Below, piece after piece: positions 55,829-60,444 of a stretch of 64,000 nt of DNA. How positions within the stretch are numbered: position 1 is the first letter of the stretch; each line of letters begins with the position of its first letter. The DNA is from Clostridioides difficile ATCC 9689 = DSM 1296 (lineage in GTDB: Bacteria; Bacillota; Clostridia; Peptostreptococcales; Peptostreptococcaceae). Both the position numbers and the translations under genes were made by a program. Location: positions 3,844,001-3,908,000 of the forward strand of contig NZ_CP011968.1 of assembly GCF_001077535.1 (NCBI RefSeq), read 5' to 3'. The notes beneath the pieces are model-generated. The model saw only the letters and a list, made by a program, of their open reading frames with translations, did not search any database and had not been told where the DNA came from.

Positions 55829-57721
55829 TTATAATAGCTTTTCAAGTTCTGCTACTAAACTATCAAATTTTTTGATTGTATTTTCTATGGGTTTTGTATT
55901 AGTTAAATTTATGCCACTTGATTTTAACAAGTTTATTGGATAATCTGAACTTCCCTTTTTAAGAAAGCTCATATAGTTATCTGAACCATTCTTTAGGATG
56001 TCTTGGGCAAAACTTACTCCTGCACTACAACCTGTAGCATATTTATAGACATAGAAACTATTATAAAAATGTGGGATTCTAGCCCATCCGACCTTAGATA
56101 ATTGGTCTAATTCATAGCTTTGTCCATAATATTTTTTAAGAAGTTGTCCCCAAACATCATTTAATACTAATGCGTTTACACTTTTTCCTTTTTCTACTAA
56201 CTCGTGTATAGTTTTTTCAAATTCAGCATACATAGTTTGTGTATAAAGAGTATCTTTTATCAAGTCTAAATACTGTGTTATATAATAAGCTTTTTCATCA
56301 TTGCCTTTAGCTTCTTTTATAAGCATCTCGTAAAGTAATGCTTCATTCGTTGTAGATGCAACTTCGTGAGTAAATATAGACGGATTTGAATTAAAATAAT
56401 TCTGATTCTTAGAACTTAAATATTCATATACAGCATGTCCAAGCTCATGTGATAAGGTCGAAACTGAACCTAATGAATTATTATAATTTAAAAGTATATA
56501 TGGATGATTTTCATAAACAGATAAGCAGTATCCACCACTTACTTTATTTTCATGTGAATAAACATCTATCCATTTTTCATTGAAAGCTTTATATACTACA
56601 TCATTGTATTCTTTTCCTAAAGGTGACAACGCTGAATATACTATACTTTGTGCCTTTTCATAATTAATATTATTGTCAACAGCCTTAACCATAGGCACAA
56701 ACATATCATATGAATGAACCTTATCTAATTTTAATACTTTTTTTCTTAAATCTATATATTTGTGTAGACTGTCCATATTACTATTTACAGTCCTTATCAA
56801 ATTATTGTATACTTTTTCATCTACATTATCAGATTCCAGGTACATTTCTAAAGAAGACTCATAACCTCTTTCCTGAGAATAAAAAATATTCTTTTTAACT
56901 TGACCAGTAATTAAACCTGCAATTGTATTTATATTATCATTGTAAGTTATAAGTTCATCTTGATAAGCTTTTTTTCTATTTTCTCTATCTGATGACTCTA
57001 ATTCACTCGCATATTGAGCTGGTGTCAAATTAGTTTTTCTATCCATATTTCTAAATAATTCATATACTTGGCTTGGAAGACTACTTATTGAAGATACTTT
57101 GCTTAGAATATCTTCTGATTTATCATCCAAATAATGTACTTTATTCCTTCTTATATCTCTTAAATATGCACCATATTTCCTATTTATATTTTTATTTGAA
57201 ATAATTTTCTTGTAATCTTTGTTTGATAATTTTAGTATTTCTAACTCTAAATCTGAACAAATCCCCATATAATTCCCATAGGATTTACTCATACTATCAT
57301 TCATATCTAAGTACTTATACGAATTTTTATTAGTATCTTGTTTTAATTTTACATAGGCAGAAAGTTTATTTAGTCTTATATCAAGTTTTTCTTTAATGTT
57401 CAAGGCAAAAGACAAATGTGTTGGCGATTTTGTTACTTTACCTATGTAATTTTTCAACTCTTTAGTATCTTTATCAAAACTCTTAAGTTCTTTTTTCCAT
57501 TGGTCATCACTTTTAAACAAAGATTGCAAATTCCAACATGTTTTTTCATAGTCTATTTCTTGTTTTTTTTCAGCATCATCTTCAGTATCATTATTATTCA
57601 TGACAGTAATTGCTCTGTCATTATTCTTTTGATATCCTTGGTCAGCTTTTATACTTATTATTAACATGCAAAAAATAGAAATAAATAAAGGTATTATTGC
57701 TTTGCACAATTTTCTATTCAT
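55829..57721 (-). CDS. Secreted or membrane-anchored M3 oligoendopeptidase F-like protein
   Basis: The 630 residues (from ATG 57721) begin with a hydrophobic signal segment (KAIIPLFISIFCMLIISI), unusual for PepF enzymes, which are mostly cytoplasmic. The zinc motif is TLSHELGHAVYEYLS near residue 430, with the third ligand Glu about 28 residues on in ASTTNEALL. It should cut medium-sized peptides outside the cell. Its ribosome binding site GAAAGGATGG lies within the hairpin at 57722-57771. I saw no true lipobox. Confidence 0.88.
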   Translation of the reverse strand: MNRKLCKAIIPLFISIFCMLIISIKADQGYQKNNDRAITVMNNNDTEDDAEKKQEIDYEKTCWNLQSLFKSDDQWKKELKSFDKDTKELKNYIGKVTKSPTHLSFALNIKEKLDIRLNKLSAYVKLKQDTNKNSYKYLDMNDSMSKSYGNYMGICSDLELEILKLSNKDYKKIISNKNINRKYGAYLRDIRRNKVHYLDDKSEDILSKVSSISSLPSQVYELFRNMDRKTNLTPAQYASELESSDRENRKKAYQDELITYNDNINTIAGLITGQVKKNIFYSQERGYESSLEMYLESDNVDEKVYNNLIRTVNSNMDSLHKYIDLRKKVLKLDKVHSYDMFVPMVKAVDNNINYEKAQSIVYSALSPLGKEYNDVVYKAFNEKWIDVYSHENKVSGGYCLSVYENHPYILLNYNNSLGSVSTLSHELGHAVYEYLSSKNQNYFNSNPSIFTHEVASTTNEALLYEMLIKEAKGNDEKAYYITQYLDLIKDTLYTQTMYAEFEKTIHELVEKGKSVNALVLNDVWGQLLKKYYGQSYELDQLSKVGWARIPHFYNSFYVYKYATGCSAGVSFAQDILKNGSDNYMSFLKKGSSDYPINLLKSSGINLTNTKPIENTIKKFDSLVAELEKLL

Positions 57722-57771
57722 AAAAAGCCATCCTTTCAATAAGTTTACTTAATAATAGGATGGCTTTTTTT
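57722..57771 (-). terminator. Hairpin with U-tract overlapping the peptidase ribosome site
   Basis: On the minus strand AAAAAAGCCATCC pairs with GGATGGCTTTTT, whose T tract ends at the ATG. The 3' arm contains the Shine-Dalgarno GGATGG. It may end transcripts from spoIIE and also hide the site when read through. Confidence 0.7.
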
Positions 57772-57822
57772 AGATATATTATTCAATTATTCATACTATA
57801 TAAATAAATATCGAATTAATAG

Positions 57823-58057
57823 TTATCCACATAATAATCAACATATTCACAGGTTTTCTTTACTTAGAAATTTAGTTATTTCAACATGAATCTCTTTTGA
57901 TAATAGCTTTTGTTTTTTCTTTTTTTACATTTTATTAACATTTCTGCCATACTTATCAACAAATTTTGTTGATTTATATGTTATTTTTGTTAATAACTAT
58001 ACTTTTTTCAAAAGTCTATTAACATATTATACACAAGTTATCCACATCTTATACACA
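57823..58057 (+). promoter_or_regulatory. DnaA-box cluster in the spoIIE-peptidase gap
   Basis: Exact TTATNCACA boxes are at 57823-57831 (TTATCCACA), 58027-58035 (TTATACACA), 58038-58046 (TTATCCACA) and 58049-58057 (TTATACACA). The last three repeat every 11 bp in one orientation. One-mismatch TTATCAACA lies at 57953-57961, and looser variants at 57835, 57843, 57932 and 57988 (reverse). The intervening DNA is extremely AT-rich. This resembles a DnaA-binding cluster. Confidence 0.75.
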
Positions 58058-58071
58058 TAATCTTGTAAACC

Positions 58072-60444
58072 TTATTTTGTACATATTTTCGTAACTAAAA
58101 CAGTCATGTCATCTTCGATTTGTAACGCTTGTAACTCTAATGCTCTATCCAATATTAAATTTGAAATTTCCTTTGGATTTGTAGTCTCTATATTCTTTAA
58201 GAAGTATATTAACCAATTGTCTCCTAAATTGTTATTTCTTCCTGCATCTACAATTCCATCAGAAACCATTATAACATAGTCTCCTTCCTTAACTTTTACA
58301 TTTTTTCTATCAATTTTTACATCTGATAATATACCCACAGGTAATGATGATGATGATATTAAGTCAACTTCTCCATCCTCTCTTTTTATATAAGTAGAAC
58401 ACGCTCCCATCTTTATAGTTTCTAAACAACCTCGTTTTAAATCTAAAATTCCCAAATCCAGAGTTGAAAACATCTCTTCTGAAGATTTTAACAACAACAT
58501 ATTGTTTATAGTATCAATGACTATCTCATCTTTAATTTTTGCATCTATCATTTTTTCCAGTATATCAATAGTGGCAGAAGATTCTTCATATGCTTTTTTA
58601 CCCTTTCCCATACCATCACTTATAGCCATCATGTATTTACCATCATTTATCTCCATGTATGTGTAATTGTCTCCACAAAGGATATGCCCATCCCTTGACA
58701 TTGCTGAAACTTCTGTAACAGCCTTATATTTTTGAGATTTAACGAATGTTGCCTTGCATTTACCTCCTAAACAGTGACATCCTATTTTTCTAACAGACAT
58801 ATTTTCACCTACTAGGTCTGAAATTATATTTACAATTTTATCTTCACACATACATCCATCATGGCAAGTTTTCTTTTCTATTGATATTTCAAACTCACTG
58901 TTACTTTTTGTTAAGTAACTTACTTTATCAACTGTTATATCATATCTTTCTAACTGTTCATATATATTTTTTTCCTTTTCTATATCTAGCATTATGTCGC
59001 CTTCTAAATCTTGAGATAAGGATTTAATGGATTTTGAAATACTTCTTATCTGATTTGCTATTAACTTTCTACTTTCTGAAAACTTCACACTCCAATCATA
59101 ATCTAATACAAACATTTTGTAATAGTGATTTGATATTTTCACTATTGACTCTGGTTTCATACATTCCTTTCTAAAATTTTTAGGTATATCGTTTAGACTT
59201 AACTCCCCTTTCTCCTCAATTTTTTCAAGAATGTTATATATCATAGTGTATGTATGATTAAATCTTGACTCCCAGCACATTCTTCTCATACTACAACTTT
59301 TACATTCATCATTATGAATCATATCTATTACATTAGCTATGTCTCTTTGGTCTAGCACTTTGTCTTTTTCTCTTATCTTATCAAATGTATCTGCAAGGTC
59401 ATCATAAGTTTTATAAATACTGTTCAATCTGCTATTAGTTAGGTTTTTGCTTCTCATAATATAATCGTATACGATTTCATTTGAAGCCACATTACTTTTT
59501 ATTAATTTTTCAATCTTATTAAATAATCGCTCTGGCAATACTAGTACTATCAAACAACCTAATAGTATATCTCTTAATTGCATCATATTAGAAGTAATAC
59601 CAGAAGTATATAGGTATATTATTGTCCAACTTAGAATATATCCTAGTATACAGAAATATTTATTTATTTTATTAAATGCTCCACTTATTAATCCTGAAAA
59701 AGAATATATCCCCATATAAACAGCTGATGTCATATTATTTAAAATGGATGCTACACCAATAATTACACCACTAGATGCTCCCATGGTAGCTCCACCTACT
59801 ATTGAGGTCAGCAATATCAATACGGTCGATAAAATGGTCCTTATTGATATTCCAAACAGAGATATATCTCCTATTCCCATTATGCTAAAGGTTAGCAGTA
59901 AACTTATTGATATGGCTTCTTCTGTCCGTACAGACATCCTATTGTTGACATTGGCCATTAAACCTATCCCATAAGAAAACACATATATAGATATAAACAT
60001 TATTATTGCTTCTACTCCTGCTATAAGAAGACCATATACATACCTATTTGAAAAGAAAGCTTGTCCCATGGAGATTGGAAGTAGTATTATTGCACCTATA
60101 AATGCAACCTTAGCAATTGAATCTGATAATTTTAATTTTTTATTCATAGCCATAAATATTGTAAGGCACACAGCATATTTTGCTACATTTCCAAAATCAT
60201 TAGATGATAACAATATTCCTAATAATGTTGATATGAATACAGGTATCTTGTACTTATCAATCTTTGATGCACATATAAAAAAGGCAATTCCTAAAGGAGC
60301 TACAGAGTCTACTATAATAGACCTACTAAGTAAAAATCCCATCACAGCGAATGCCGCCGTAGTAAAATCAATATATCCGCTTATTAATTTTATGACATTT
60401 GGTTTTACAGTCTTATTCTTCACAACTGCTACACTTCTTTGCAT
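58072..60444 (-). CDS. spoIIE: Stage II sporulation protein E, phosphatase
   Basis: SpoIIE dephosphorylates SpoIIAA, freeing sigma F in the forespore, and takes part in polar division. The 790 residues comprise about ten N-terminal membrane helices (to about 310), a middle region with Cys-rich CKSCSMRRMC and CHDGCMC segments, and a C-terminal PP2C phosphatase domain with metal Asp in MAISDGMGKGKKA near residue 605 and VMVSDGIVDAG near 730. Its GAGGAGG site is the 3' arm of a hairpin at 60452-60493. Confidence 0.97.
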   Translation of the reverse strand: MQRSVAVVKNKTVKPNVIKLISGYIDFTTAAFAVMGFLLSRSIIVDSVAPLGIAFFICASKIDKYKIPVFISTLLGILLSSNDFGNVAKYAVCLTIFMAMNKKLKLSDSIAKVAFIGAIILLPISMGQAFFSNRYVYGLLIAGVEAIIMFISIYVFSYGIGLMANVNNRMSVRTEEAISISLLLTFSIMGIGDISLFGISIRTILSTVLILLTSIVGGATMGASSGVIIGVASILNNMTSAVYMGIYSFSGLISGAFNKINKYFCILGYILSWTIIYLYTSGITSNMMQLRDILLGCLIVLVLPERLFNKIEKLIKSNVASNEIVYDYIMRSKNLTNSRLNSIYKTYDDLADTFDKIREKDKVLDQRDIANVIDMIHNDECKSCSMRRMCWESRFNHTYTMIYNILEKIEEKGELSLNDIPKNFRKECMKPESIVKISNHYYKMFVLDYDWSVKFSESRKLIANQIRSISKSIKSLSQDLEGDIMLDIEKEKNIYEQLERYDITVDKVSYLTKSNSEFEISIEKKTCHDGCMCEDKIVNIISDLVGENMSVRKIGCHCLGGKCKATFVKSQKYKAVTEVSAMSRDGHILCGDNYTYMEINDGKYMMAISDGMGKGKKAYEESSATIDILEKMIDAKIKDEIVIDTINNMLLLKSSEEMFSTLDLGILDLKRGCLETIKMGACSTYIKREDGEVDLISSSSLPVGILSDVKIDRKNVKVKEGDYVIMVSDGIVDAGRNNNLGDNWLIYFLKNIETTNPKEISNLILDRALELQALQIEDDMTVLVTKICTK

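Follow-up and report, generated by a model that had tools for sequence, protein, structure and literature searches.

Analysis of a 64-kb stretch of the Clostridioides difficile chromosome (C1:3844001-3908000 of a 4.15-Mb genome, hereafter the window) revealed an array of predicted DnaA boxes directly 3' of the sporulation gene spoIIE that, judging by comparison of related genomes, is kept by selection. We consider it rather probable that this array represents an oriC-proximal DnaA-box cluster, ancestral to the Peptostreptococcaceae, with the role of a DnaA sink. The box array, its selection, its family-wide distribution and its proximity to oriC are read directly from the sequence comparisons; DnaA binding, titration and timing at the site are what we infer.

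The array occupies the 350-nt gap at 57722..58071 of the window, located 3' of spoIIE (58072..60444, stop codon 58072-58074, Pfam PF19732 and PF07228) and upstream of an M3 peptidase gene (55829..57721, ATG at 57721), both of which are encoded on the minus strand. The Pfam assignments agree with the flanking genes named in the first-pass annotation, and the SpoIIE protein shares 98-99% identity with its counterparts in four C. difficile records. A motif scan of the gap returned four perfect TTATNCACA boxes at 57823, 58027, 58038 and 58049, all on the plus strand and the last three at exact 11-bp steps, just as the annotation had described. An 11-bp step corresponds to a 9-bp box plus 2 bp, a spacing that E. 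coli oriC arrays may share. The scan also recovered five single-mismatch boxes, where the annotation had noted at least one, at 57787, 57843, 57932 and 57953 on the plus strand and at 57988 on the minus strand.

Alignment of 16 gaps resolved three modules, termed D, M and P, all of which are present in the C. difficile gap. Module P adjoins the spoIIE stop and holds the predicted DnaA boxes P1 (TTATACACA, 58027..58035), P2 (TTATCCACA, 58038..58046) and P3 (TTATACACA, 58049..58057), all on the plus strand and invariant in eight Clostridioides genomes, with P3 the third of the 11-bp array and 14 nt from the spoIIE stop. Module M combines TTATTAACA with TTATCAACA, which in most rows comes 21 bp later, and with TTATYAACA in inverted orientation. 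In the window these are the one-mismatch boxes at 57932..57940 (plus strand, TTATTAACA), 57953..57961 (plus strand, TTATCAACA, 21 bp from the next box) and 57988..57996 (minus strand, TTATTAACA in the opposite orientation), the last of which appears as TGTTRATAA in 11 of the 16 aligned rows by hand count. Module D combines TTATCCACA, another box 12 bp on and a third overlapping TATTCACA. Its anchor in the window is the predicted box D1 (TTATCCACA, 57823..57831), followed by a degenerate second box that reads TAATCAACA (57835..57843), and TTATACACA in several other genera, and by the one-mismatch box ATATTCACA (57843..57851), all on the plus strand. The one-mismatch TTATTCATA at 57787..57795 (plus strand) is absent at that position in the other aligned genera and is probably a chance match.

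Box number alone was unremarkable in the window, as 8 boxes were found compared to 5.4 expected and 18 out of 100 shuffles reached 8; the striking feature is the clustering. General enrichment of boxes was not observed genome-wide either (258 boxes compared to 303 for the reversed control motif). Within the gap, dinucleotide shuffles yielded a mean of 0.06 perfect boxes compared to the 4 observed, and none of 300 shuffles reached 4. Perfect same-strand pairs with 0-30 nt between boxes occurred at three places in the genome (control 0), namely the spoIIE gap and the DNA upstream of a 16S rRNA gene (C1:146629) and of hpf (C1:193663), and the spoIIE gap is the only place in this Clostridioides genome with a perfect 11-bp pair. 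A 31-bp triple with up to three mismatches was matched at two places, the spoIIE gap and C1:2764245 (control 0). The occurrence of similarly phased boxes in many AT-rich gaps, which the first-pass annotation had held out as evidence against its own reading, was thus not found in the genome-wide scans.

The distribution of the element among relatives was evaluated in two sets of loci, which are not independent because many genomes are common to both. Out of 30 loci in the first set, 25 gaps could be delimited (L028-L032 gave no spoIIE-peptidase gap) and 24 of these contained at least one perfect box, the exception being L027, with an 88-nt gap and none. The second set comprised 80 named loci, of which 40 (L063-L102) were assigned to the Peptostreptococcaceae by SpoIIE identity and record names; DNA downstream of spoIIE was available for 39 family loci (excluding L090) and 39 loci of other families (excluding L120). 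Within 500 nt downstream of spoIIE, 36 of the 39 family loci had one perfect box or more and 28 had at least two, in line with the conservation within the family that had been raised as a check. These 98 perfect boxes were antisense to spoIIE in 89 cases and sense in 9, and a reversed-motif control gave 7. The density of 2.51 boxes per 500 nt directly after spoIIE (39 loci) compares to 0.06 within the body of spoIIE itself, 0.03 and 0.08 in the two 500-nt intervals that follow downstream (39 and 38 loci) and 0.00 in each of two intervals upstream (37 and 36 loci), such that neighbouring intervals held 0-3 perfect boxes in total each, compared to 98. These flanking intervals are a better control than the other-family loci since the latter are on average less AT-rich. 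A widespread feature of spoIIE loci was rejected, as a single box was found in 2 of 39 other-family loci, two boxes in none, and a perfect box after spoIIE in none of 10 loci with downstream DNA from other families of the order (L048 being without such DNA). The distribution suggests that the spoIIE-3' cluster is probably ancestral to the Peptostreptococcaceae.

Gap length was the same, 350 nt, in the eight Clostridioides genomes, and varying columns numbered 0 out of 81 in boxes compared to 24 out of 219 elsewhere (Fisher p 3.6e-4), a comparison that leaves aside the 50-nt hairpin leader, in which 2 of 50 columns vary. Both bases of the P2-P3 spacer vary in these genomes and neither base of the P1-P2 spacer does. 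Across the alignments it is the N position of the box that varies (A, C, T and G were all found) with the rest kept, which is the pattern expected for DnaA. Perfect 11-bp triples in module P were found in Clostridioides and in L019. A relaxed pattern allowing at most one mismatch gave 7 matches in 18 family genomes, of which 6 lay after spoIIE, compared to 0 for the control; four of these 6 were from Clostridioides and 3 out of 13 genera were represented. Other genera have steps of 9, 12 or 21 bp, and the 11-bp phasing is therefore one solution and no rule: the exact phasing that was claimed holds for Clostridioides and a few relatives and does not extend to the others. Nor is the full array essential, as 3 of the 39 family loci lack a perfect box, and in some genera (Intestinibacter, Asaccharospora) module D holds the only one.

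The chromosomal position of the element was evaluated in 11 genomes, four of them Clostridioides, whose dnaA and spoIIE share a contig. The 3' end of spoIIE was located 158.6-207.6 kb from dnaA, on either side, with the cluster in the window being intergenic and 207.6 kb away. In two genomes of other families spoIIE was located at roughly 93-95 and 260 kb, without boxes. Direct box pairs in the 11 genomes numbered 44 compared to 2 for the control and merged into 34 loci. Of these, 26 lay no more than 250 kb from dnaA (15% expected); when oriC itself is left aside, the figure is 24 out of 32. The p value of this test overstates independence as the genomes are related, and without the four Clostridioides genomes 14 out of 17 paired loci were within 250 kb (hand count). 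The pair 3' of spoIIE was present in 8 of the 11 genomes and a second pair, upstream of hpf, in 8 of the 9 genomes in which hpf was mapped. In the genome of the window the hpf cluster (L038 1052-1107, G000:C1:193651-193706) lies about 200 nt ahead of the gene and consists of two perfect boxes at a 9-bp step. One or more perfect boxes were found in the 500 nt upstream of hpf in 16 of the 18 best hpf loci, and none in the roughly 3.5 kb of each of the hpf paralog loci L162 and L163. In all 9 genomes spoIIE and hpf were on opposite arms; this is suggestive only, because inversions around oriC would preserve such placement, and the equal distances on the two arms could likewise come from such inversions. 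Conservation, orientation, absence from the flanks and oriC proximity all bear out the cluster outside oriC proposed in the first-pass annotation, and its further suggestion that DnaA may be titrated there is a well-supported possibility.

Other clusters of boxes were observed in the course of these scans. At C1:146629 (L037 930-1013, G000:C1:146629-146712) TTATCCACA occurs three times on the same strand, in DNA that follows a radical-SAM gene and precedes the 16S rRNA gene by 227-310 nt, and a pair identical in sequence was found 142-148 kb from dnaA in all 4 Clostridioides genomes searched. Two Clostridioides genomes contain four perfect same-strand boxes within roughly 84 nt (G001:C1:3968598-3968681 and G005:C1:3712271-3712354), about 700-730 kb from dnaA, and no such pair was listed in the genome of the window. 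At C1:2764245 (L165 1446-1499), on the 3' side of a penicillinase-repressor-type gene, TTWTNCACA / TTTTNCACA variants occur at 11-bp steps, and a similar tract about 600 kb away (L164 1148-1201) has boxes 22-23 bp apart. These two tracts could be sites of another protein.

DnaA might instead act at the element as a transcription factor, repressing or activating the peptidase gene or stopping read-through from spoIIE, which we regard as unlikely. Module D lies roughly 100-130 nt ahead of the start of the peptidase gene, next to two conserved features, a TTATTCAA tract and a leader hairpin, and DnaA is known to regulate genes elsewhere (PMC4447404). Module P is however some 300 nt from the peptidase start, and promoter-like matches in 57650-58150 numbered 4 compared to 5.1 in shuffles. 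Furthermore, the peptidase gene follows the element in 25 out of 30 first-set loci and does not in the Alkalithermobacter and Tepidibacter loci. In L095 and L096 (Alkalithermobacter) and L099 and L100 (Tepidibacter) the next gene is convergent and not a peptidase gene, with two box groups following spoIIE, the second of which appears by eye to correspond to module D. In L094 (Tepidibacter thalassicus) a same-strand 107-aa ORF follows the boxes. The four loci with boxes between convergent genes speak against an ancestral role in promoter control; the boxes were not found to be tied to a neighbour-gene promoter, and a promoter-only role was rejected. An additional promoter role may exist where the peptidase gene is present.

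The leader of the peptidase gene (57722-57771, minus strand) could form a 13-bp hairpin with the core GCCATCCT/AGGATGGC, which encloses the likely ribosome binding site before the ATG. The hairpin is kept in 15 of the 16 aligned rows with few mismatches; L024 carries a compensatory change of a C-G to a U-A pair, and L027 the same change along with three broken pairs. It may hide the ribosome binding site or work as a terminator. As for spoIIE, its expression has been tied to CamA methylation in the spoIIE promoter, at the other end of the gene, with DnaA unmentioned in the available part of that report (PMC13395437).

That the element alters the nucleotide state of DnaA in the manner of DARS or datA, beyond mere binding, is less probable still. 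E. coli datA needs IHF and promotes DnaA-ATP hydrolysis, and the ordered geometry, mixed orientations and central one-mismatch boxes of the element are reminiscent of the ordered boxes of DARS and datA. Against this, no regulator of the DnaA nucleotide state is known in B. subtilis according to the part of the literature consulted (PMC5295017).

A secondary or cryptic replication origin is highly improbable and was rejected. The cluster is situated in 79% AT DNA and shares box types with C. difficile oriC1 and oriC2, including TTATTAACA and TTATCAACA; in oriC2 such M-type TTATYAACA boxes, TTATCAACA among them, lie directly beside the DnaA-trio after dnaA, which supports the reading of the M boxes as DnaA sites. 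Whereas oriC2 has a DnaA-trio (within C1:1301-1650), a mapped unwinding region and dnaA and dnaN as neighbours (PMC7561715), no DnaA-trio was found next to a DnaA box in the spoIIE gap of the same genome, making a second origin unlikely. In addition, GC skew was negative over 26-64 kb of the window, on both sides of the site, with no switch. Chance or a low-complexity artefact of AT-rich DNA, for which the AT-richness of the boxes and their lack of genome-wide enrichment might speak, has next to no probability and was rejected on the gap shuffles, the genome-wide pair and triple scans, the flanking intervals, the conservation in the family and the invariant box columns.

The link between replication and sporulation that the first-pass annotation had drawn from the position of the cluster found no footing in the C. 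difficile gap, and indirect support came from relatives. The gap contains neither TTTGTCGAA at up to one mismatch nor a perfect TGTCGAA, on which grounds Spo0A control in Clostridioides was rejected; two one-mismatch 7-mers (TATCGAA and TGTTGAA) and three two-mismatch 9-mers are present. A perfect TTTGTCGAA was found within the element in 11 of the 39 family loci; in the rows that were aligned it falls between modules M and P. Inverted copies were searched for in 35 of the 39 family loci (excluding L078, L088, L089 and L097), and in 7 of these (L070 and L072-L077), from Romboutsia-like genomes, the 500 nt after spoIIE contain two inverted Spo0A-box-like copies that are separated by a fixed 193-194 nt and bracket the centre of the element. 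The first copy is perfect in six and has one mismatch in L076; all seven carry one mismatch in the second. In L076 and L077 this second copy is TTTGTAGAA, changed at core position C4, a contact base; a C4-type change lowered binding of C. difficile Spo0A, whose core is TGTCGAA, roughly tenfold (PMC3485338). Such matches make the annotation's proposed link reasonable for part of the family, and Spo0A could modulate the spoIIE-3' element during sporulation in Romboutsia-like genera, with the sporulation link appearing weak in C. difficile itself. Among the matches listed in a literature search, the scope of which took in few subscription journals, none linked "DnaA box" or "DnaA-box cluster" with spoIIE.

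In order to work as a DnaA sink, the element would have DnaA nucleate on the perfect boxes of P and D and spread from there over the 11-bp-phased and one-mismatch boxes. As the site is located about 159-208 kb from dnaA, it would be doubled early after initiation, and the spoIIE-3' and hpf clusters on the two arms would then withdraw free (ATP-)DnaA from oriC and delay re-initiation. Homologs of YabA, Rok or Hda have not been identified in C. difficile, whose control of DnaA has been stated to be unknown (PMC7561715), a gap that a DNA-encoded brake would fill. Placement after spoIIE may merely reflect an oriC-near intergenic site. In B. subtilis, joint deletion of six DnaA-box clusters outside oriC resulted in early initiation (PMC5295017, PMC13220808). 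Roughly tenfold overproduction of DnaA in otherwise wild-type B. subtilis did not cause over-initiation (PMC13220808), which argues against simple titration, and most of 269 regions that bind DnaA in vitro were not bound in vivo (PMC4447404), meaning that good boxes need not be occupied. In a wider scheme, which we put forward tentatively and hold to be doubtful, the spoIIE-3' and hpf-5' clusters of Peptostreptococcaceae would be matched DnaA sinks on opposite arms, approximately 105-208 kb from dnaA and replicated soon after initiation, that form the main brake on DnaA without YabA or Hda; binding of Spo0A to the two inverted boxes 193-194 nt apart in Romboutsia-like genera would then let sporulation entry alter DnaA availability directly.

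The conserved and precisely located DnaA-box element offers a concrete cis-acting candidate for the control of DnaA in C. difficile. It is also a likely replication-control element that a family has retained at the 3' end of a sporulation gene, and in some genera it contains Spo0A-box matches.

Three features of the DnaA-box clusters of B. subtilis were found here as well: boxes clustered above chance outside oriC, intergenic and oriC-proximal, and under selection. Strong DnaA regions in B. subtilis are sda, ywlC, ywcI/vpr, yydA, trmE/jag and gcp/ydiF (PMC4447404), which we read as its six clusters. Like the spoIIE-3' element these regions have several boxes each, are intergenic and lie mostly within about 0.65 Mb of oriC, and the gcp/ydiF region is situated between convergent 3' ends (PMC4447404). 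The neighbouring genes differ, as spoIIE and yvyD are absent from the main text of that report (PMC4447404). The spoIIE-3' cluster was, among the loci examined here, confined to the Peptostreptococcaceae. In the datA locus of E. coli, high-affinity boxes are likewise clustered in non-coding DNA away from oriC, and the locus acts negatively on initiation (PMC5295017). Spo0A and DnaA boxes overlap in B. subtilis oriC (PMC7561715, PMC5295017), and adjacent matches to the two were likewise found in the elements of Romboutsia, Faecalimicrobium and Paraclostridium; in contrast to that overlap the element is not at oriC, and no Spo0A match was found in the Clostridioides loci L003 and L063-L066. By this comparison the spoIIE-3' array would be another DnaA-box cluster outside oriC, with an unusually fixed address and Spo0A-box matches in sister genera.
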